Assembly: GCA_002868945.1 (NCBI GenBank)
Contig: PKTX01000050.1
Coordinates: 11,570-70,551 of the forward strand
DNA: 58,982 nucleotides
Reading direction: 5' to 3'
Origin: Desulfobulbaceae bacterium
GTDB taxonomy: Bacteria; Desulfobacterota; Desulfobulbia; Desulfobulbales; SURF-16
Shown here: one piece after another, positions 1,995 to 42,109 of the stretch
Numbering within the stretch: position 1 is the stretch's first letter
Layout: every line of letters begins with the position of its first letter
Translations under genes and position numbers: made by a program
Notes under the pieces: generated by a model
Seen by the model: only the letters and a program-made list of their open reading frames with translations
The model's database searches: none
Told to the model about the DNA's origin: nothing

Positions 1995-2240
1995 GCTGTT
2001 TTCCCCATTGCAGAGTTGAGCGAGCAGGGTGCCATGCCCCTTCGACAGGCTCAGGGACCGGACTCTGAGCCTGTCGAAGAACAATTCCCTTTTCACGGCG
2101 GAAGGCGAGAGGGCCGGAGGCCAACTCTGCCGGGGTCCCATTTCTTTCGCCGCTTTGCTGCTTGTTACTTTTCTTTGGGCAAGCAGCCAGCGAAGTGGGC
2201 GAAGAAAAGTAACAGGGTACAGACGACTCCCAAGCATAAA
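1994..2240. repeat. Composite palindromic repeat A, copy 2
   Basis: This shares TTCCCCATTGCAGAGTTGAG with copies 1 and 3 and the CACGGCGGAAGGCGAG block with copy 1. It carries a 15-bp stem hairpin at 2040-2079 (CTTCGACAGGCTCAG and its complement), the same palindrome as in copy 3, and a GTTACTTTTCTTTGGGCAAGC stem with its complement near 2205-2214. MITE-like repeat N1 begins directly at its right edge. Confidence 0.6.
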
Positions 2241-2434
2241 GGCCATCTTGAATAATTGCTTTTTTGTCCGATTTTTTCGTCGCCACGAAAAATAAAAATC
2301 CTCACATATACCTGATATGCTGCACCCCAAGGGCACTTCTTTCAGGGCGCGCTTTTTATTTTCTATGCTTCTCAAACTCGAACAGGTAAGCGAGCTTGCG
2401 AGACTCCGAAATATCTAATAATTCAAGATACCCT
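2239..2434. mobile_element. MITE-like element, subtype 2, copy N1
   Basis: The element is about 195 bp with imperfect terminal inverted repeats: left AAGGCCATCTTGAATAATTG, right (complement) AGGGTATCTTGAATTATTAG. Its interior (CTGCACCCCAAGGGCACTTC; AGGTAAGCGAGCTTGCGAGA; CTCCGAAA) is almost identical to 5674-5868 and related to 29452-29669 and to the subtype 1 elements. It encodes no transposase, so any movement would need one supplied elsewhere. Confidence 0.75.
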
Positions 2435-2540
2435 AAAGTCGAGCAATGGCTTATGAGACAAGGCGTTGCTGTCGGGCAATTTTCCGCTGCGCTCCAATGA
2501 GCCGCAGAGCGCGGCGTTATGCAATCATTTCCAAAGCCAC

Positions 2541-2568
2541 TTGACACGCGTCACGTGACAGTATACAC
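2541..2568 (+). promoter_or_regulatory. Promoter and operator of the second HigBA operon
   Basis: TTGACA at 2541-2546 is followed by a 17-base spacer and TACACT (an alternative -10 is TATACA two bases earlier). The spacer contains the perfect palindrome GTCACGTGAC (2550-2559), well placed for repression by the HTH antitoxin. The start codon of the broken toxin is at 2577. Confidence 0.62.
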
Positions 2569-2576
2569 TTTCAGGC

Positions 2577-2763
2577 ATGATCAAATCCTTCGCTGACAAA
2601 CGCTCTCAAGAGCTGTACTCCAAAGGTAAGTCAAAGAAGTTTCCCGCGGATGTCGCGCCGCGAGCTGCCAGAAAACTTGAATACGTAAAATGATCAGTGG
2701 CGTATCTGTTTTCGATTTGAAGATGGCGATGCGTATGAGGTTGAAGTGTGTGACTACCACTGA
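2577..2763 (+). pseudogene. higB: Broken HigB toxin with internal deletion
   Basis: ATG 2577 reads MIKSFADKRSQELYSKGKSK and on to ARKLEYVK before a stop at 2691-2693, the N-terminal third of a RelE/HigB toxin. A second frame entered at that point reads NDQWRICFRFEDGDAYEVEV and CDYH with a stop at 2761, the canonical C-terminus of the same family. About 30 middle residues are missing and the junction shifts frame, so an internal deletion is the simplest explanation. The product cannot be functional, leaving the antitoxin at 2778 without its partner. Confidence 0.85.
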
Positions 2764-2777
2764 GGGAGGTGATGACT

Positions 2778-3092
2778 ATGGCTATTCCTAACACTAACGG
2801 CATGCAGCGCAAGCCGACTCATCCTGGTGAAATGTTGAGGGAGGACTTTTTGCCGGACTATGGCCTGACCGTTGCGGGGCTGGCTGAATCTCTGGGTGTC
2901 TCACGCCAGTCAGTTAATGAGTTATTGCGCGAGCGCCGTGCTGTCAGTCCTGAAATGGCGCTTCGGCTTGCCCGTTTGTTTGGTAACTCTCCGGAATTCT
3001 GGCTGAACGCGCAGCAATCGGTTGATCTGTGGGCGGCGGCTCAGTCGGTTAAGGAAGAGGTTGATCGGATCAAACCGTTACATGCTGCATAA
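2778..3092 (+). CDS. higA: HigA-type antitoxin, XRE family
   Basis: The 104-residue protein has the HigA signature RKPTHPGEMLREDFLP followed by a helix-turn-helix (GLTVAGLAESLGVSRQSVNE) and LALFGNSPEFW-like residues (LARLFGNSPEFWLNAQ). ATG 2778 is preferred because GGGAGG at 2764-2769 lies 8 bases upstream; an earlier ATG at 2772 is too close. In HigBA systems it neutralises HigB and represses the operon. Its partner here is a pseudogene, so it may persist as an orphan regulator or antidote. Confidence 0.87.
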   Translation: MAIPNTNGMQRKPTHPGEMLREDFLPDYGLTVAGLAESLGVSRQSVNELLRERRAVSPEMALRLARLFGNSPEFWLNAQQSVDLWAAAQSVKEEVDRIKPLHAA

Positions 3093-3160
3093 GCAAGCCA
3101 TGCAGCCGACCTCGCTGGCGTTTTAGTGAGGTCAGCGAGGGGCGGATTCGCTGTTAGTTT

Positions 3161-3340
3161 TTTTGGGCGAAGCCGGCACACGAAGAAGGGGAGGGCCAGA
3201 TTCACCACCATGCTTGTGCATAGCTCGAATGGTGAATCCGGATGAGTACCCATGCCGTTTATCCCCATCGCAGAATTGAGTGAGCAGGGAGCTGTGCCCC
3301 TTCGACAGACTCAGGGACCGGTCCCTGAGCCTGTCGAAGG
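3161..3340. repeat. Composite palindromic repeat A, copy 3
   Basis: It shares about 120 bp with copy 1 (CGAAGAAGG, GATTCACCACCATGC, GGATGAGTACCCATGC). Inside, GATTCACCA pairs with TGGTGAATC. The end is a 40-base near-perfect palindrome at 3300-3339 (CTTCGACAGACTCAGGGACC and its complement with one mismatch), the same structure as at 2040-2079. The copy lies between the orphan antitoxin and the exporter and may act as a transcription barrier. Confidence 0.6.
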
Positions 3341-3389
3341 GTGAAAGTCACTGTGACGCTCTGTGGTGCATCAAGGAAAAGGAGACCGT

Positions 3390-4268
3390 ATGAAAGGCGC
3401 CAGTGCAGCATGCGTGGCCCTGGCTGCCCTGGGCTGGGGAGTGTCCGGCGGCATCGGCGGTATGCTCATGGCCGCTGGCTGGGACCCTTTCGTGGTATCG
3501 CTCTACCGCGGTGCCATCGGTCTGCTCTTTGTCCTGGTTTGGCTGGCCGTGCGGCCGCGCCAGAGCGGCTTGTCAAATCGCCGCTTATGGTTCTGGTCAA
3601 TGATTGCCGGTATCGGTGTGGCCGGCAACTTTGCCTTCTATTTTGTCAGCATTGCAGAGGGCAGTGTGGCGGTGGCGGCAACGCTGATGTATTGCGCCCC
3701 GGTGTTCGTCTATCTCGTGTCGTTTGCGCTCAAACTTGAAAGCGCCACTGGGCTGAAGTGGGCCGCCATGGCTGTGGTGATGGTCGGCATTGTATTGCTT
3801 ACCCGCATTCACGACATGGGCAGCGGCGGCGTTACCTGGCTCGGCGTGGGCGCCGGTTTGCTGGCCGGGCTCTTTTACGCACTCTTTATTTTCGGTTTCA
3901 AGTATGCGGCGCCGCACGGCAGCCCGCAGGCCATTCTTCTGATAGCATTCGCGGCACTTGTTGCCCTGCTCATTTGGCCGAGCGATAGCCACCAGACCAT
4001 TGCGGTCCTGAGCACACCGGACTGGCCGCTCTTTGTGGCACTGGGGCTTTTTGGCGCGGGTTTGTCGTTTTTTCTTTATATTGTCGGTCTGCGGCATACC
4101 GCGCCGACCGTGGCCGCAATTGTTGCAATGGTCGAACCTGTTACCGCGACGCTCTTCGGCGTCGTGGTTTTAAGTGAAAGCTTGCTTGGCTCGCAAATTT
4201 TCGGCATGGCACTGATATTGGTCACCGTCACCGCACTCAGTGTTTATCCAGGGGCTCGGCACGGATAA
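3390..4268 (+). CDS. DMT superfamily (EamA) transporter
   Basis: The 292-residue protein has about ten hydrophobic helices in two EamA repeats (about 5-135 and 150-285). The first ends in YCAPVFVYLVSFALKLE and the second in AAIVAMVEPVTATLFGVVVLSE, both typical of drug/metabolite exporters of the inner membrane. ATG 3390 follows AAGGAG by 5 bases. Substrate cannot be told from sequence; family members export amino acids, metabolites or toxic compounds. It stands alone between a repeat-rich accessory patch and the PilZ-like gene. Confidence 0.85.
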   Translation: MKGASAACVALAALGWGVSGGIGGMLMAAGWDPFVVSLYRGAIGLLFVLVWLAVRPRQSGLSNRRLWFWSMIAGIGVAGNFAFYFVSIAEGSVAVAATLMYCAPVFVYLVSFALKLESATGLKWAAMAVVMVGIVLLTRIHDMGSGGVTWLGVGAGLLAGLFYALFIFGFKYAAPHGSPQAILLIAFAALVALLIWPSDSHQTIAVLSTPDWPLFVALGLFGAGLSFFLYIVGLRHTAPTVAAIVAMVEPVTATLFGVVVLSESLLGSQIFGMALILVTVTALSVYPGARHG

Positions 4269-4377
4269 CAGGCATGCCCAGGCATCCACGCCATCAAAAA
4301 AACAGCCATCTTCCCACCCTCATCTTTTTGCATTATCATAGGGCGCATCAACCTTCCCCATTGCGTCCCTCACCTCC

Positions 4378-5076
4378 ATGAAAGAAAAATGGCTGGCAAA
4401 TATCGAGCAGATCGTCCACGAGCTTGTTGCGGTGGTCAGTGACAGGCTGCACCTCTTTCTCTATACAGAGCAAGAACCGGACGGTCTCATCACCACGGCC
4501 AGCCGCGTCTGCAGCTACAACGGCGAGGCTTACCTGCTCCTGCAGAATGATGGCAGCCTCCGGGCCGGCCAGCAGGGTTTTGCCCTCTATCGCCGGCCCG
4601 GCAGGGAGTTGAGCCGCGGCTTTCACCTGGAGGTGCGGCGGTCCACCGCAAAACAGGTTGCCGTCAGCCTGCCCAGGCAGATCTTTAAGATTCAGCGCCG
4701 CCAACATCCGCGCATCATGGTGCCGGGAGACTCCCTGGTGGATTTCTTTATCAACGACAGCCCGATTGCCACCACCATGACCGTGGTGGATCTTGCCAAG
4801 GCAAGTGCCCGCTTTTCCGGCCTGCCCATGGCAGGCCTGGCGGCGGCCACCAGGCTGGAGAGGCTGAGCCTGCATCTGCGGCGCACCCTCTACCGGCATG
4901 ACAGCTTCACCATCGCCCTGGGCTCGGCCATGGTGAAAAGGGTGCAGCGCAGCCGCCGTACGGCGGGTGAGGTGGAGGTGGTGGTCTGCTTCCAACCAAC
5001 CCTGGTGGAGGAGGAACAGCTCACCCTCTACATCGAATCACAGCTCTGGCAAGCCAGCCTCTATGACAAGCGCTGA
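4378..5076 (+). CDS. PilZ/YcgR-like domain protein
   Basis: The 232-residue soluble protein has a C-terminal half resembling PilZ: an arginine-rich QRRQHPR segment near residue 107, followed about 30 residues later by VVDLAKASARFSG in place of the usual D/NxSxxG. PilZ domains bind cyclic di-GMP through these two elements; the second is degenerate here, so binding is uncertain. The N-terminal half may be a YcgR-N-like or flavin-split-barrel-like domain. A diguanylate cyclase is encoded at 47783-48976, but nothing links the two. It is followed by a terminator. Confidence 0.55.
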   Translation: MKEKWLANIEQIVHELVAVVSDRLHLFLYTEQEPDGLITTASRVCSYNGEAYLLLQNDGSLRAGQQGFALYRRPGRELSRGFHLEVRRSTAKQVAVSLPRQIFKIQRRQHPRIMVPGDSLVDFFINDSPIATTMTVVDLAKASARFSGLPMAGLAAATRLERLSLHLRRTLYRHDSFTIALGSAMVKRVQRSRRTAGEVEVVVCFQPTLVEEEQLTLYIESQLWQASLYDKR

Positions 5077-5216
5077 GGTGTGCTGAGGTGTAAGGTTCAA
5101 GGCGCAAGGATTTAGAGGGGCGGCGGGACAGGTGAGCGGGCTGAGGCAGCTGCTGTTTCCTGAATTCTCAATACCGACTTCTGCATTCTTGTGTTATTCC
5201 AGAAGGTCGAAGCCAT

Positions 5217-5253
5217 AAAAAAAAAGAGCCACCAGACGGTGACTCCTTTTTTT
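5217..5253. terminator. Bidirectional intrinsic terminator
   Basis: A run of A, the stem GAGCCACC/GGTGACTC with one mismatch and AGAC loop, then TTTTTTT. It can end the PilZ-like gene on the plus strand and minus-strand transcription from the rubredoxin side. Confidence 0.75.
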
Positions 5254-5493
5254 GTGCATTGTTTTCTTTTGAGCCGGCGGCGGGGGTGAGGAGCAGTGGA
5301 AGAGGTCAGGGCAATCAAGAAAACCGCCCAAGAAGGGCTTTTTTACTCCTCACTCCTAACGCCTCACCCTGCACCGGCATAACAAAGGTGCTGTGCTGCC
5401 CAAATCTATTGCGCTGTTACGGCAGGAGAAAACTCTGTCGGGGAGTTGGGGAGCAATTATTGAAGATGGCCTTTTTACGATTTTCCGGAGGCC
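5254..5493. other. Intergenic region with small terminator and a MITE end fragment
   Basis: No gene is visible. GCCC-AAGAA-GGGC-TTTTTT at 5325-5343 is a short terminator. CAATTATTGAAGATGGCCTTT at 5454-5474 is an inverted copy of the subtype 2 MITE end, directly downstream of the minus-strand rubredoxin stop, suggesting a decayed insertion. Confidence 0.5.
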
Positions 5494-5652
5494 TTAATCC
5501 GCCTTCCAGAAATCCGCCTTTTCGGCACCACACTTGGGACAGACCCAGTCGTTGGGGACATCTTCCCATTTGGTGCCCGGCTCCACGCCGTTTTCGTAGT
5601 CGCCTTCCGCCGGATCGTATATATAGCCGCAGGGGCATTCCCACTTGTCCAT
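5494..5652 (-). CDS. Rubredoxin with a shortened first metal knuckle (CxC)
   Basis: The 52-residue protein is a single rubredoxin domain: [18 protein letters not shown], then [13 protein letters not shown], then [11 protein letters not shown]. Rubredoxins carry one electron on an iron bound by four cysteines and serve as donors to peroxide- and superoxide-detoxifying enzymes in anaerobes. The usual first knuckle is CxxCG; here it is C6-P-C8-G, one residue short, while the second (C39xxC42) is normal. ATG 5652 is chosen because AAGGAG lies 6 bases upstream; another ATG two codons earlier abuts the site. A MITE separates it from the desulforedoxin-domain gene upstream. The gene is easily missed because of its size. 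Confidence 0.9.
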
Positions 5653-5673: not shown

Positions 5674-5868
5674 AAGGCCATCTTGAATAATTGCTTTTTT
5701 GTCCGATTTTTTCGTCGCTACGAAAATAAAAATCCTCACATATGCCCGATATGCTGCACCCCAAGGGCACTTCTTTCAGGGCGCGCTTTTTATTTTCTAT
5801 GCTTCTCAAACTCGAACAGGTAAGCGAGCTTGCGAGACTCCGAAAAATCTAATAATTCAAGATACCCT
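5674..5868. mobile_element. MITE-like element, subtype 2, copy N2
   Basis: This copy is nearly identical to N1 over its full 195 bp, including both inverted ends (AAGGCCATCTTGAATAATTG; complement of right end AGGGTATCTTGAATTATTAG). It lies between the rubredoxin start and the desulforedoxin-domain protein stop and may have split a former redox operon. The high identity to N1 suggests recent spread. Confidence 0.78.
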
Positions 5869-5891
5869 GAATAGTGAAAAACTGGGGGGGA

Positions 5892-6218
5892 TTAGTCCAG
5901 GTTTTCCATGACCTTGCCACAACAGGTGGGGAGTCCCTCACCCTTGGCAACCTTCATGTACTTATTGCAGGTGGCGCAGTAGTAGGTGGCATCCATGGCC
6001 GCTGTTTCCTCCACCCGCTGGGTGACGCCGCCAGGCACGCCTTCAATGACAAAGCGGGCCTGGTCGCTCTTGCCGGGCAGAAACTCGCCGATGGGGGAGA
6101 GCCGCTTATTGTCATTCAAGCAGTCCACCGTTATGCGCCACAGGGTTTCAAGATCTTGGCTTTCTGCTGCGTTCTCCGGGACAAACTCGACCACATTCTT
6201 GTCAATTGAAATCTTCAT
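5892..6218 (-). CDS. Small redox protein with C-terminal desulforedoxin-type FeS4 domain
   Basis: In this 108-residue protein the last 30 residues (YYCATCNKYMKVAKGEGLPTCCGKVMENLD) match the desulforedoxin pattern: CxxC, about 14 residues, then CC, which binds one iron through four sulfurs. The first 75 residues (about six strands by eye, no cysteines) belong to no family I recognise and lack the superoxide reductase HxxxCH-type site, so it is not a plain desulfoferrodoxin. It probably transfers electrons in the cytoplasm. Upstream is the rhodanese-MBL fusion (97-bp gap), downstream a MITE and rubredoxin, which suggests a shared role in oxygen or reactive-sulfur defence. Confidence 0.72.
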   Translation of the reverse strand: MKISIDKNVVEFVPENAAESQDLETLWRITVDCLNDNKRLSPIGEFLPGKSDQARFVIEGVPGGVTQRVEETAAMDATYYCATCNKYMKVAKGEGLPTCCGKVMENLD

Positions 6219-6315
6219 ACCTTTCCTCGCTGGTTTATGTGTTTAGTTGGTAATAATAATAATTCCTAATTAAGAACGGGTCAATACAATTCTTGAAAAA
6301 ACAGCAGGGCTGGCT

Positions 6316-7503
6316 TCAGCCCTTCTGGCGCTCGGCCTCGGCGCTGACGCCCACTGCCCCGTAATGGCTGGCGCCGCACTCGTTCTTGCCGAGATCCATG
6401 ATGTTGCGTTGCTCGCTATCGACGCTGAGCCAGCCGGCATTGATGCGGCGTATTTCCTTGTAGACCTCGGGTTGCGGCCGCAGATTTTCGCGGATAAATT
6501 GGGCAAACCTGCCCTCATGGACAAAATGAAAGGCGACATTGCTTTTCTTGAGCTCTCCCAGGGGGGCGGCAAAGAGCAGGTCGTCACTGGCCTCCTGCCA
6601 GGAGGTGAAGTGGCCCGGCAGGATGAGGACTTCGTCGTCAATGTCGCGCAGGGTAACCATCAGGGTGAGGTAGAGGATGCGGGACCATTCCTCGCTCTTG
6701 CCGCCTAAGTCTGGTCGGCCGGCCGATTGGATAAAGATGGTGTCGCCGGTGAGCAGGTATTTGCCGTCAATGAAGTAGCTTGCGGAACCCAGGGTATGGC
6801 CCGGCGTATGGATAACCTTGATATCGGGGCCTTGGGCCAGGGAGATGGTCTGGCCGTTTTCCAGGGTGGTGAAGGGGAAATCCGCACCGATAAAATCAGG
6901 GGCCATGACCATGACCTCGGCACCGATCTCCTTCTGCAGGAGAATACTGCCGGCAATATAGTCGGCCTGACGATGGGTCTCAAAGGTCTTGCTGATGGTG
7001 GCACCGCGTTCCTTGGCAAAATCTTGATAGAACTGGATGTTGGCCGAGGGGTCAAAGACCAGGGCCTCGGATCCGGCAATGAGCATATAGCTGCAGGAGG
7101 CCTTGCCCGGCCGAATTATCTGGTAGAGCTCGTAGGGGGCCTCGGCACCGCTTATTTTCCGGGGGGCCAGCATGTTCCCCCAGGAGACAATGCCCTCCTT
7201 GAGGTAACCCACGTCCGTAAAGCCGTTGGCCAGGAGCTGCTCGCTGACAAATTTGGCCGAGGCCTCTTTGGCGCAGACCACCCGAATTTTTTCATTGGCC
7301 GGTATCTTGGCGATGCTCTCTTCAATATCCTCGATAAAGTCGTAATAGGGAATGTTTATGTAGGGGATAAAGGAGGGGCCCTCAACGGCAAAGTTGAGGA
7401 ATTCCTTTTCGTTGCGCACATCAAGGAGGACAAAATCGGCCTTGCCGGTGAGTCGGTCAAAGAGATCGTCCGCAGTGTAAACATAAGGTTCAGGGGCGGG
7501 CAT
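6316..7503 (-). CDS. Rhodanese-MBL fusion, ETHE1/persulfide dioxygenase-like
   Basis: This 395-residue cytoplasmic protein is a fusion. Residues about 5-115 form a rhodanese domain (FVLLDVRNEKEF; active loop VVCAKEAS with a cysteine). Residues about 120-330 form a metallo-beta-lactamase fold. Its HxHxDH motif reads THRQADY, so two histidines are lost, but the three residues that bind the single iron in ETHE1 (first His, HTPGHTLG His, TGD Asp) are all present. This favours a mono-iron persulfide dioxygenase-like enzyme over a zinc hydrolase. ETHE1 oxidises glutathione persulfide to sulfite, and rhodaneses carry sulfane sulfur. A roughly 60-residue C-terminal tail is unassigned. The promoter at 7577-7605 faces it. 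Confidence 0.8.
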   Translation of the reverse strand: MPAPEPYVYTADDLFDRLTGKADFVLLDVRNEKEFLNFAVEGPSFIPYINIPYYDFIEDIEESIAKIPANEKIRVVCAKEASAKFVSEQLLANGFTDVGYLKEGIVSWGNMLAPRKISGAEAPYELYQIIRPGKASCSYMLIAGSEALVFDPSANIQFYQDFAKERGATISKTFETHRQADYIAGSILLQKEIGAEVMVMAPDFIGADFPFTTLENGQTISLAQGPDIKVIHTPGHTLGSASYFIDGKYLLTGDTIFIQSAGRPDLGGKSEEWSRILYLTLMVTLRDIDDEVLILPGHFTSWQEASDDLLFAAPLGELKKSNVAFHFVHEGRFAQFIRENLRPQPEVYKEIRRINAGWLSVDSEQRNIMDLGKNECGASHYGAVGVSAEAERQKG

Positions 7504-7605: not shown

Positions 7606-7684
7606 CAAAAATGCCGGCCAGCCGTTCCTGGGCATGGGGAAAAGCTCTCTCTTGCGACGCTGTGAACAGGGTGATGAAAAAATG

Positions 7685-7713
7685 TTGACATGCCCCTCTC
7701 CATCGGCTTTAAT
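7685..7713 (+). promoter_or_regulatory. Sigma-70 promoter of tRNA-Ala
   Basis: TTGACA, a 17-base spacer and TTTAAT end 29 bases before the mature tRNA-Ala. This is the closest match to the sigma-70 consensus that I noted in the window. Confidence 0.8.
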
Positions 7714-7742
7714 GGCCCTCACCTTTTCGCAAGAACTTGAGT

Positions 7743-12769: not shown

Positions 12770-13783
12770 ATGGATCTTGGTATCAATGTAATTGAAATGC
12801 TGCTCTACCTGGTGGCGATTATTGGCTTTGCCGCCATTAATGCCGCTTACCTGGTGTGGGTGGAGCGTAAGGGCGCCGGCCATATTCAGCGCCGGACCGG
12901 ACCAAAAGAGGTGGGTCCCTACGGACTCCTGCAGCCCTTGGCCGACGGCGCCAAGCTCATGAGTAAACAGCTCATTATCCCTGCCGGCGTCGACAAGCCT
13001 CTCTTTATGGTGGCGCCGCTCCTGGCCATGGTGCCGGCCGTGATGATCTTTGTCACCATTCCCTTTTCCGAAAACCTGGTGGCCCGCGACATTAATATCG
13101 GCCTGCTGGTTATCTTTGCCTTTGCCTCCGTCAATGTCCTCTCCCTGCTCATGGGCGGCTGGGCCTCACGCAACAAGTATGCTGTGATCTCGGCAGCCCG
13201 TGCGGTGTCACAGAATGTCGCCTACGAGATTCCCCTGCTGGTTATGACCATTACCATTGTCCTGGTCTCAGGCAGCCTCAATCTGCGGGAGATCGTCTTC
13301 AGTCAGGCCGGCGCCTTCTGGCATTGGAACTGGCTGCCCACCAACGGTAATTTTCTGGGGCCCATCACCTTTATCATGTTCTTCATCTGTTACCTGGCAG
13401 AGACGAACCGCGCCCCCTTTGATCTCGGCGAGGCCGAATCAGAGCTTATTGCCGGTTTTCATACCGAGTACGGCTCCATGGGCTTCGGCCTCTTCTTCAT
13501 GGGGGAGTATGCCAATATCGTTATCGGCTCCGCCCTTATCGTTATCCTCTTTCTGGGAGGGTGGTACAGCCCCTTTCCTGAAGTGGTTCCCTTTCTGGGC
13601 AGTGCCGGGGTCTGGTGGTTTCTCCTGAAGATGTACCTGTTGATCTGGTTAGTGGTGTTGATTCGCTGGACCTTTCCGCGTGTAACGCTCTGGTCGCTGC
13701 TCAACCTTTCCTGGAAAATTTTGATTCCTTTCTCTCTCTTCAACCTGCTGGCCAGTGCCGGACTTGTCAAGTTCCTGGGCTAG
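12770..13783 (+). CDS. nuoH: NADH-quinone oxidoreductase subunit H
   Basis: This 337-residue membrane subunit has about eight helices joining the peripheral arm to the membrane arm. Motifs: YLVWVERKGAGHIQRRTGPKEVGPYGLLQPLADGAKL and FICYLAETNRAPFDLGEAESELIAGFHTEYGSMGFGLFFMGEYAN, the acidic loop at the quinone chamber. AGGAG precedes the start. Length and motifs are typical. Confidence 0.96.
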   Translation: MDLGINVIEMLLYLVAIIGFAAINAAYLVWVERKGAGHIQRRTGPKEVGPYGLLQPLADGAKLMSKQLIIPAGVDKPLFMVAPLLAMVPAVMIFVTIPFSENLVARDINIGLLVIFAFASVNVLSLLMGGWASRNKYAVISAARAVSQNVAYEIPLLVMTITIVLVSGSLNLREIVFSQAGAFWHWNWLPTNGNFLGPITFIMFFICYLAETNRAPFDLGEAESELIAGFHTEYGSMGFGLFFMGEYANIVIGSALIVILFLGGWYSPFPEVVPFLGSAGVWWFLLKMYLLIWLVVLIRWTFPRVTLWSLLNLSWKILIPFSLFNLLASAGLVKFLG

Positions 13784-34165: not shown

Positions 34166-34205
34166 TAAAAAAAGGCCGGGACTGTTACGGTCCCGGCCTT
34201 TTTTT
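34166..34205. terminator. Bidirectional terminator
   Basis: AAAGGCCGGGAC pairs with GTCCCGGCCTTT across a 7-base loop, with A and T runs on either side. It serves the M16 gene and the convergent membrane-protein pair. Confidence 0.9.
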
Positions 34206-34239
34206 ATGGAGGCATCAAAGAGGAAGGCGGCCTGCCTTG

Positions 34240-34551
34240 TCAGGCCTTGACGCCGGTTTTCTTGTCAGACTTGTCGATATATTTGAAGAATATCGGGAAG
34301 GCGATAAAGAAGGCACCTGCCATCAGATATTCAACGCCCTTGATGTGGGTGTAGAAATCGACCAAGGTCTCATACTCGCCAAGATTACCGGTGGCAACCA
34401 GAAATTGCCGCATCATCTCGCCAACCTGGAAGTTGACGGAAGACAATCCTGTCATAAAGGCCATCATGGCCCAGATGCCGAAGGCCCCTGCCAATCCAGC
34501 CATAATCCCCAAGAATGCGCCTGATCCTTTGTTTTCGTTCCTGTCAGTCAT
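34240..34551 (-). CDS. Small membrane protein, two helices
   Basis: The 103-residue protein has two predicted helices (about 12-34, GAFLGIMAGLAGAFGIWAMM; and about 73-90, EYLMAGAFFIAFPIFF) with a polar loop between and charged ends (TDRNENK; DKSDKKTG). I do not recognise the family. AAGGAG lies 7 bases before the start. It is the second gene of a two-gene minus-strand operon behind a candidate sigma-54 promoter. Confidence 0.75.
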   Translation of the reverse strand: MTDRNENKGSGAFLGIMAGLAGAFGIWAMMAFMTGLSSVNFQVGEMMRQFLVATGNLGEYETLVDFYTHIKGVEYLMAGAFFIAFPIFFKYIDKSDKKTGVKA

Positions 34552-34624: not shown

Positions 34625-34837
34625 CTAGATACCGGTGATGGCGGTCATAAATCCTTTGACCACACCGCCGATGCCTGCCGTGCTCAGGGCACCTGCCAGA
34701 CATGCGACGCTCCAGGCGCCGATAAGTCCGGCCAGCGCGACAACGATTCCCAAACCGATTTTGCTGGCCTGGTTAATGTCTGCATTGGTGTCATGGGTGT
34801 CCTGGGTTACCAATCTTGTTTTTGTGTTCTCTTTCAT
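34625..34837 (-). CDS. Small Gly/Ala-rich membrane protein
   Basis: The 70-residue protein has a polar N-terminus (about 1-25), a long hydrophobic helix (GLGIVVALAGLIGAWSVACL) and a Gly-rich end (AGALSTAGIGGVVKGFMTAI). It shares the LAGxxGxW motif style with its neighbour (LAGLIGAW; LAGAFGIW), so the two may pack together. Family unknown to me. AAGGAG lies 7 bases before the start. It is the first gene of the pair. Confidence 0.75.
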   Translation of the reverse strand: MKENTKTRLVTQDTHDTNADINQASKIGLGIVVALAGLIGAWSVACLAGALSTAGIGGVVKGFMTAITGI

Positions 34838-34899
34838 GGCCGTTCTCCTTGTCGTTGTTCTTTATTGCCGTTTTTTTCTCTGCTGTTGGCTAGTGTAAG

Positions 34900-34915
34900 A
34901 GCATGGGCCATGCCA
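34900..34915 (-). promoter_or_regulatory. Candidate sigma-54 promoter
   Basis: On the minus strand TGGCATGGCCCATGCT has GG and GC exactly 12 bases apart and matches the TGGCACG-N4-TTGC consensus at 9 of 11 fixed positions. It lies 63 bases before the first gene of the membrane-protein pair. Confidence 0.65.
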
Positions 34916-35087
34916 CAAAGAGGCGGTAGTGTTGGTTAAAAATGCAAAAGCGCGATTTTTCAACGAGATAAAACTGTCTATGCCACATTAGTGTGCTGCC
35001 TGTCTCAAAAAGGCGGACAGGCCGATGCCACAAAATATGTAGCAAAGGGTGTGCGACAGAAGTGTTGATGCAACAGTTTTTGCCACA
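34911..35087. promoter_or_regulatory. Cluster of six TGCNACA motifs, possible enhancer sites
   Basis: TGCCACA at 34911, 34981, 35026 and 35081, TGCGACA at 35052 and TGCAACA at 35069 all point the same way. The site at 35026-35044 is a true palindrome (TGCCACA-N5-TGTAGCA). Five lie 65-185 bases upstream of the sigma-54 promoter, the usual distance for activator-binding sites. The region 34838-35230 holds no gene. Confidence 0.55.
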
Positions 35088-35230
35088 GGTGATGGGGCGG
35101 GAAATTGCCGGACAAGATGGCTGCAGTGCAAAAAATGAAGATGGGAATCAGTTGTCTTCGACGTTGGTTTTGGTACAACTGATCAGGCTGAGAAAGAGAG
35201 GTGCGGAGACGCCGGTGAAAGGAGGAAAGT

Positions 35231-35689
35231 ATGACTGAAGAGGTGTGTGTACAGGTAAAATGGCTTGATCATGATAATAGGGCAGGGCTGCGGCTGCCGG
35301 CCTATCATTCCGATCTGGCTGCCGGTATGGATATTCAGGCCGCCATCGAGGCGGACGTCATTTTGGCACCGGGTGAGAGGGTTCTGCTGCCCACCAATGT
35401 GGCCATGGCCATAGCTCCGGGCTACGAGATCCAGGTGCGACCGCGCAGTGGTCTGGCCATCAAGCACGGCGTTACGGTGGTTAACAGTCCCGGAACCATT
35501 GATGCCGACTATCGCGGTGAAATAAAGGTGGGGCTGATTAATCTGGGCGACAAGGACTTTGCCATATCGAGGGGGGATCGGATTGCGCAACTGGTGCTGG
35601 CGCCGGTCTGTCGGGCCTCTTTGTTGCAGGTCGAGGAGTTGCCGGAGACCGGCCGCGGCGTCGGCGGTTTTGGTCATACAGGTTTGTGA
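35231..35689 (+). CDS. dut: dUTP pyrophosphatase
   Basis: The 152-residue trimeric enzyme hydrolyses dUTP to dUMP. All five motifs are present: [52 protein letters not shown] and the C-terminal [11 protein letters not shown] arm. AAAGGAGG lies 5 bases before the start. It is not in an evident operon. Confidence 0.95.
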
Positions 35690-40729: not shown

Positions 40730-40970
40730 GCGGTCTGTCCGGAAATGAGCCTCTCGGAGTCTCGTAAAATCCCTTGCCGGGCTGATCTCCCGCAATCTCT
40801 GGACTCGCTTACCTCGTCATGCTCAAAAAATAATACCTGCAATATCATATGTATGTCTGCACCCCACGGCTACTTCTTGTAGGGCGTGCTTGTTTTTCTC
40901 GTACTCCTTGCCCGCAAACAGGTAAGCGAGGCGGCGCGACTCCGAAATGGCCTATTTGGGGACAGACAGT
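40730..40970. mobile_element. MITE-like element, subtype 1, copy M1
   Basis: The ends are TCTGTCCGGAAATGAGCC (left) and, complemented, ACTGTCTGTCCCCAAATAGG (right), about 240 bp apart. The interior has CTCGCTTACCTCGTCATGCT, CAAAAAATAAT and GTCTGCACCCCACGGC. The right end overlaps the last codons of the minus-strand YeeE gene and supplies its stop. Confidence 0.75.
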
Positions 40971-41530
40971 TTCGAGTCTTTGTTGTCCGGCAGGAAAAAG
41001 GCCACGGCCATGAAGGCCATGGCAAGGGCCAGGGCCACCACCAGGCCGGGGATGGAGCCGAGCAGGGCCGGGTAGTGCGTGGGGGTTGCCGCCAAGGTGC
41101 TTTTGCCGCCGGCAATGGCGTGCAGCAGCCGGCCTCCTTCCAGGTTGGCGTAGACCAGCATATAGATGAAGGCACCCAGCAGGCCGCCGGCGGTAAAAAA
41201 CACGGCATCCTTCCTGCCGTCACCCAGGGCCACCAGGCCGGTGCCCGGACAGTAGCCGGCAATAGCCCAGCCGGCGCCAAGCAGCATGCCGCCCACCAGA
41301 ACGCCCCAGTAACTCTCCTTAATACTGATATGGCCGGGATTGATAAGTCCCAGTGTCAGGCCGATGAAGAGAACGGCGCTGGCAATGCCGATGGCCAGCA
41401 GGATGGTCTTCATCAGGTGGAGATCCTTGAGGCGCAGCATGTTGATGATGTTCTCCGGGTTGGAGGCCCCTACCCGGTGCAGGACAAAGCCGAAAAGGGT
41501 GCCGAGCACAAGGGCCAGAAAAATTTCCAT
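40952..41530 (-). CDS. YeeE/YedE family sulfur transporter, half 2
   Basis: This 192-residue inner membrane protein has about five helices. Its signature AGYCPGTGLVALGDGRKDA contains the cysteine that in YeeE/YedE proteins relays thiosulfate or other sulfur species. The last codons (reading LSVPK and TAG) lie in the inverted repeat of MITE M1, so the original C-terminus may have differed. AGGAGG precedes the start. It pairs with the gene 12 bases upstream. Confidence 0.85.
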   Translation of the reverse strand: MEIFLALVLGTLFGFVLHRVGASNPENIINMLRLKDLHLMKTILLAIGIASAVLFIGLTLGLINPGHISIKESYWGVLVGGMLLGAGWAIAGYCPGTGLVALGDGRKDAVFFTAGGLLGAFIYMLVYANLEGGRLLHAIAGGKSTLAATPTHYPALLGSIPGLVVALALAMAFMAVAFFLPDNKDSKLSVPK

Positions 41531-41542
41531 GTCACGTTCCTC

Positions 41543-42109
41543 CTATTTCCTGCCGTAGATAATGATTGCCAGAGGGATTCCGGCCATAAAGGCGCCCAAG
41601 GCAAAGAGGTAACAGCTCACCGAGGTCTGCATCATACCGCTCATCATATGGCCGCTGGTGCAGCCGCCGGCCAGTCTGGCGCCGATCAGCACCAGGACAC
41701 CGCCGACAAAGGCCAGGGCGTAGCGTCTGCCGCTCTTGTCGCCGAATCGTCGGCGCCAGGAGGCTGGCGCCACCCTGTCCCGGGCAGAGGGCGTAGGCCC
41801 GGCCAGCAATCTGGAGAGGATGCCGCCCAAGATCATGCTCAGGGCAAAGATGAAGCTGTAGTTGGCCGGATTTTTGATGTTTGCGGCATACTTGCCGCCG
41901 CTTTTGTCAAGATAGGCATTGCTGCTGGCATAGCCGGATTTGGCCGTGGAATCGGGCCGGATCAGCTCCTTGGAGAAGGTGTTCCAGATCAGGCCGTCCA
42001 GAATGACAAACTGCGTTGACACTCCGATGGGCTTGACCAGGATAACGGCCAGCAGAAAGGTGAGACCCAGGGCAATCCCGCCCTTGAGCCAGTCAAGTTG
42101 TCCTGTCAT
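41543..42109 (-). CDS. YeeE/YedE family sulfur transporter, half 1
   Basis: The 188-residue membrane protein has the paralogous signature GARLAGGCTSGHMMSGMMQ. In one-gene YeeE transporters both signatures occur in one chain; here, as in PmpA/PmpB-type pairs, they are split over two genes. An internal segment (STAKSGYASSNAYLDKSGGKYAA) forms a loop outside the membrane. AAGGAG precedes the start. It is divergent from the cupin gene. Confidence 0.85.
   Translation of the reverse strand: MTGQLDWLKGGIALGLTFLLAVILVKPIGVSTQFVILDGLIWNTFSKELIRPDSTAKSGYASSNAYLDKSGGKYAANIKNPANYSFIFALSMILGGILSRLLAGPTPSARDRVAPASWRRRFGDKSGRRYALAFVGGVLVLIGARLAGGCTSGHMMSGMMQTSVSCYLFALGAFMAGIPLAIIIYGRK

Follow-up and report, generated by a model that had tools for sequence, protein, structure and literature searches.

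Genes and features at the locus

The region considered here, positions 34838 to 35230 of the window (the whole stretch of 58,982 nucleotides from a sulfur-cycling Desulfobulbaceae bacterium that was analysed), lies upstream of two small minus-strand genes, A and B, whose coordinates are collected in Table 1 with those of the predicted control elements and of a likely terminator. Both open reading frames are genuine, since they are conserved as a pair. The glycine richness of their products, noted in the preliminary description, stands (13-14% Gly), but the view of both as unrecognised does not, as the C-terminal half of B is HmcD-like and both proteins are tied to an Hmc-like locus. Pfam, PHROGs, plasmid and PDB searches with A and B gave nothing useful, and AlphaFold single-protein models of the two were of such low quality (pLDDT 66 and 59) that they could not serve for a fold search. 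The inverted repeat that follows B was not listed by a consensus scan, and Rfam matches near 34166, all below gathering scores, were set aside as reflecting only the hairpin. The divergent gene on the other side of the region (35231-35689, plus strand) is dUTPase-like by sequence motifs, so that the boxes described below lie between it and A. Farther off, two adjacent open reading frames (40952-42109, minus strand) resemble, by eye, the halves of a YeeE/YedE-type transporter.

Table 1. Genes and predicted control features of the A-B locus (window coordinates).
Feature	Position	Strand	Basis
Likely bidirectional terminator following B, a GC-rich inverted repeat flanked by A/T tails	34166..34206	-	sequence
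Gene B, 103 aa, two predicted transmembrane (TM) helices, C-terminal half HmcD-like	34240..34551	-	profile match and homologues
Gene A, encoding a small membrane protein of 70 aa with a single predicted TM helix (residues 29-47)	34625..34837	-	conserved pair with B
Predicted sigma-54 promoter TGGCATGGCCCATGC, -24 TGGCATG / -12 ATGC	34901..34915	-	sequence and conservation
TGTGGCA box overlapping the -24 element	34911..34917	-	similar box 2 bp from the -24 start in 6 promoters
Putative activator box TGTGGCA	34981..34987	-	motif match
Palindromic putative activator site TGCTACATATTTTGTGGCA, two boxes 12 bp apart	35026..35044	-	motif match
Putative activator box TGTCGCA	35052..35058	-	motif match
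Direct-repeat pair TGTGGCAAAAACTGTTGCA, two boxes 12 bp apart	35069..35087	-	motif match

Predicted sigma-54 promoter and upstream boxes

Read on the minus strand from 34915 to 34901, the promoter candidate has the exact GG-N10-GC spacing claimed for it at the outset, with the -24 GG and the -12 GC set 10 bp apart as in the sigma-54 consensus TGGCAYG-N4-nTGC. Taken alone this single match is weak, the 75 matches to the -24/-12 pattern found across the whole window with up to two mismatches being what chance predicts, and its significance derives from conservation: [TC]GGCAYN6TGC is present in all 37 homologous A-B upstream regions, which are related and not fully independent sequences covering many families of the order, taken to be Desulfobulbales, against a mean of 0.28 and a maximum of 2 in shuffled sequences, and altered -24/-12 spacings, used as controls on the same regions, gave 0-1 matches. 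The transcription start predicted from the element, at about 34889-34890, is consistent with sigma-54 spacing. An IHF-like site between boxes and promoter was considered and dropped, with one weak match in nine regions.

Upstream of this element clusters the motif TGTNGCA, or TGCNACA on the opposite strand. Six copies had been described; six do lie upstream of the -24 element, and with a further copy that overlaps it the total between 34911 and 35087 is seven (starting at 34911, 34981, 35026, 35038, 35052, 35069 and 35081, that at 35038 in reverse orientation). The overlapping copy is in part a by-product of the -24 sequence itself. The full palindrome reported earlier is indeed present, as TGCCACA-N5-TGTAGCA, at 35026-35044. 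Across the order, the 37 A-B promoter regions hold 109 boxes, compared with 11 in shuffled sequences and 2 matches to a reversed control motif; the exact box is absent from four of them. The commonest box-to-box spacing is 12 bp, and most boxes stand 69-190 bp upstream of -24, within the span of about 70-200 bp expected of sigma-54 activator sites.

Could the boxes be there by chance, or serve the divergent dUTPase gene, with an incidental -24/-12 match? Over the full window the 7-mer shows no enrichment (24 copies seen against 30.6 expected, 7 of the 24 falling within 177 bp), and by itself the -24/-12 score there is no better than chance. Yet seven boxes never arose when the 400 bp upstream were shuffled 5000 times by dinucleotides (mean 0.44, maximum 4), and the arrangement is conserved in 37 homologous promoters, mostly elsewhere in their genomes; an origin by chance or for the dUTPase gene is barely credible and is, in the main, already refuted. 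The reading of positions 34838-35230 as an enhancer with a sigma-54 promoter, serving the two-gene operon A-B, and of this switch as real and activator-dependent, is well supported.

Recurrence of the switch in the genome and in the order

When the whole 3.7-Mb genome was searched for the palindrome, it was found in three places, one in the window and two on contig C39. There, two perfect palindromes accompany a paralogous A-B operon (B 79% identical) with its own -24/-12 element, CGGCACACCACATGC, so that the search for further palindromes near other -24/-12 promoters, proposed in the preliminary description as a check, had a positive outcome. With a relaxed pattern the palindrome occurs in nine places, compared with two for a reversed control pattern, and six of the nine fall in three clusters, in the window, on C39 and on contig C69; the motif is thus not equally common in unrelated regions. 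The matches on C6, C21 and C32, which have neither clustered boxes nor a convincing sigma-54 site, and one at C68:34742, inside an open frame, were judged to be due to chance.

An order-wide search placed B in 123 of 258 genomes, with A upstream of it in nearly every locus fetched (the exception begins at a contig end). Ten operons taken from the window's genome and close relatives all have the sigma-54 element and upstream boxes. A-B often occurs in tandem or in extra copies, as in CSMAG_701 (L065), L038, L039 and L058, mostly each with its own promoter.

A candidate activator

In the relative CSMAG_701, genes for a histidine kinase and a sigma-54 response regulator are followed directly downstream by B and A-B, and then by ftsH. 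The window's genome has the orthologous kinase-regulator-ftsH cluster on contig C69, and the gene order in many relatives is kinase, enhancer-binding protein (EBP), A, B, ftsH, cytochrome, HmcB and HmcC, with a second kinase next in gene maps from other families. It is from this conserved order that the likely activator can be named. The C69 protein (3761-5527 of the locus sequence) has the composition of an NtrC-type response-regulator EBP, with REC (PF00072), PAS (PF08448), AAA+ sigma-54 interaction (PF00158) and Fis helix-turn-helix (HTH, PF02954) domains, and carries the motif GSFTGA, an accepted variant of GAFTGA in EBPs (PMC4641369). Across the order the HTH core, GNKAxAARxLGIDRSTLYRK, hardly varies, and in this it resembles the box. 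The associated kinase (2097-3758) has no predicted TM helix, and several cysteines in its PAS domains could sense redox state. Several kb away from the ftsH that belongs to this cluster (5695-7464), a second FtsH-like gene (49% identical) starts at 13242.

Of the 48 best activator orthologues, 22 have gene B on their own strand no more than 4 kb downstream, and in raw counts that ignore kinship 104 genomes have both B and the EBP, 19 B only, 50 the EBP only and 85 neither. B is missing from 9 of the 48 strong activator genomes, and the 19 genomes with B alone gave no EBP match; incomplete genomes or divergence may account for the missing partners. The gene for an EBP, which had been expected to show autoregulatory copies of the motif, was found, but the kinase-EBP operon has 0-1 boxes, so autoregulation is not supported. 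The layout of an activator-dependent promoter, as first described, is now backed by phylogenetic footprinting, a second genomic copy and this linked EBP gene. DVU0539 of Desulfovibrio vulgaris, near hmc by locus number, was considered as a precedent and rejected, its reported targets being lactate and transport genes.

Neither A-B operon of the window's genome adjoins the activator gene. The boxes might bind some other sigma-54 activator, the C69 protein being linked to them through genome history only. EBP paralogues are many (a first look with a PAS-AAA query gave 28 candidate regions in this genome), EBP matches lose strength, and often number more than one, in the order's more remote families, and binding of the boxes by the C69 protein is itself something that we infer. 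We nevertheless regard another activator as very unlikely: the C69 protein alone has one clear orthologue in each of five genomes, its gene stands directly upstream of A-B in many families, and boxes also precede the hmc-like operon in its own locus. The most likely activator is the C69 regulator, which would be phosphorylated and bind the boxes in trans.

Relation to an Hmc-like locus

Immediately past ftsH on C69 comes the third box cluster, in which twelve boxes are packed into about 210 bp. It is followed by genes for a pentahaem cytochrome c (five CxxCH motifs), an HmcB-like FeS protein that has a Tat signal and a single TM helix at its C-terminal end, and an HmcC-like protein with 10 TM helices. 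Their NCBIfam scores, 391.6 bits for HmcB (cut-off 420) and 351.9 bits for HmcC (cut-off 550), are both under the equivalog cut-offs. The gap between ftsH and the cytochrome gene holds at least two boxes in 14 of 17 loci and no control motif in any, and most of these gaps also contain a -24/-12 element. At 7647-7717 in the C69 gap, and recurrently in relatives, boxes also form head-to-head pairs 7 bp apart, besides the 12-bp pairs.

Gene B provides a further connection. Against the NCBIfam HmcD model (NF045712) it scores 21 bits (E 2.4e-4), below the equivalog cut-off of 34 bits, for which reason it is called HmcD-like and not HmcD; the scores of its relatives, 17.6-24.5 bits, are likewise sub-threshold, and short stand-alone proteins score similarly. 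A resembles the N-terminal part of B, and B may combine an A-like module with an HmcD-like peptide; the match to the profile is modest. Outside the order, nearly all matches are to the C-terminal half of B only, a single genome (G412) having a full-length A-B pair; where the frame was read, in four loci, the stand-alone proteins have 53-58 aa.

It is conceivable that the promoter, the boxes and control from C69 are all real and that A and B are not subunits of the complex but small membrane proteins acting in some other response, perhaps as substrates of FtsH or as membrane-quality factors. The presence of ftsH in the conserved locus, between B and the cytochrome gene, would fit such a role, as would the lack of an HmcD-like part in A and the departure of A-B from the hmc-like genes, with duplication, in the window's genus. 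Against it stand the HmcD-like scores of B and its relatives, the position of A-B beside HmcBC in L105, L109 and L112, and the organisation outside the order, where the short homologue of the C-terminal half of B is followed by hmcB in all five loci examined (L119-L123), with a multihaem cytochrome gene between the two in L121, and where ftsH was not detected in the 3-kb loci. We consider a separate response unlikely. A and B are most likely small membrane subunits or assembly partners of the Hmc-like complex, of which they would be physical members. In many genomes A-B is in the hmc-like locus or beside HmcBC; in the window's own genome it is not adjacent, A-B having in this genus moved off the locus and been duplicated, with the switch retained.

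Proposed mechanism and significance

The promoter, the boxes and their conservation, together with synteny, co-occurrence and family relationships, make a well-supported case for a dispersed regulon that is under EBP control and serves an Hmc-like menaquinone/cytochrome c complex, to which we add, by inference, an inducing signal and a biochemical role for the proteins. On the reading that we hold to be probable, such a signal would lead the soluble PAS histidine kinase to phosphorylate its partner, the REC-PAS-AAA+-Fis response regulator, which would bind paired TGTNGCA half-sites 70-175 bp upstream of -24, oligomerise, touch sigma-54 RNA polymerase through its GSFTGA motif across a DNA loop, and open the promoter by ATP hydrolysis. 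The same regulator would thereby switch on the two unlinked A-B operons, in the window and on C39, and the cytochrome-HmcB-HmcC operon on C69. A and B would then serve the Hmc-like complex, with B contributing an HmcD-like segment. By analogy with HmcC and QrcD, the complex would join the menaquinone pool and periplasmic cytochromes, with a presumed direction of flow; for Hmc itself, function and direction of electron transfer are uncertain (PMC6303296).

A bolder and quite improbable extension is that A and B form a composite small-protein system, in which B arose by fusion of an A-like membrane module and an HmcD-like peptide, and whose several unlinked, separately promoted copies would let the activator set the amount of a small oligomeric component per Hmc-like complex. 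If true, composite A-B would represent a novel type of subunit in electron-transfer complexes, both regulated and swappable.

Our literature search, which covered few subscription journals, returned no account of the regulon, the locus or the gene pair. A two-gene family that is otherwise unannotated, and present in about half of the 258 genomes of its order, hence gains a predicted regulator with its DNA site, as well as a likely partner complex, and the dedicated two-component switch and conserved box make the question of an Hmc-type electron route testable.

Comparison with known systems

The closest counterpart is the Hmc complex of D. vulgaris Hildenborough, composed of HmcABCDEF (PMC10924467). 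Shared with it are a multihaem cytochrome c, a Tat-exported, tail-anchored HmcB-like FeS protein, an HmcC-like protein with 10 TM helices and a small hydrophobic protein that is HmcD-like. Unlike Hmc, whose HmcA has 16 haems, the locus described here encodes a cytochrome with five haem motifs; the genes mapped beyond HmcC in the locus showed neither HmcE nor HmcF; the HmcD-like part has an additional TM module fused to it and is partnered by A; A-B is dispersed in several copies; and a sigma-54 response regulator is predicted to be in control. In D. vulgaris, regulators are associated with hmc in the form of downstream genes that we take to be Rrf1 and Rrf2. Two downstream genes there affect hmc expression, according to Keon 1997 as cited in PMC9338935. 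HmcC belongs with QrcD to the 10-TM NrfD/QrcD group, suggested to be electrogenic (PMC6303296); QrcD and HybB, of the QrcABCD and HybAB modules, match the C69 HmcC-like protein far worse than HmcC does.

Cable bacteria and some Desulfobulbales have a TMH1-dsrOhPh-tetrahaem locus, for which a quinone-to-periplasm role has been proposed in a text that leaves Hmc, sigma-54 and FtsH unmentioned (PMC13047784). It resembles the present locus in combining a small TM protein, an FeS protein, an NrfD-family protein and a multihaem cytochrome; it is DsrOP-like and has four haems, whereas here the best matches are HmcB and HmcC, the haem motifs are five, and an EBP and ftsH are present. In regulation, the nearest parallel is found in Desulfovibrionales, where the EBP DVU3142 and sigma-54 control the Ohc complex (PMC4641369). 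Both cases involve an electron-transfer membrane complex, a dedicated EBP, upstream sites and sigma-54 promoters, and both were discovered by comparative genomics; they differ in complex and lineage, and in that the activator proposed here belongs to a two-component system, being a REC-PAS EBP accompanied by a kinase and an ftsH of its own.
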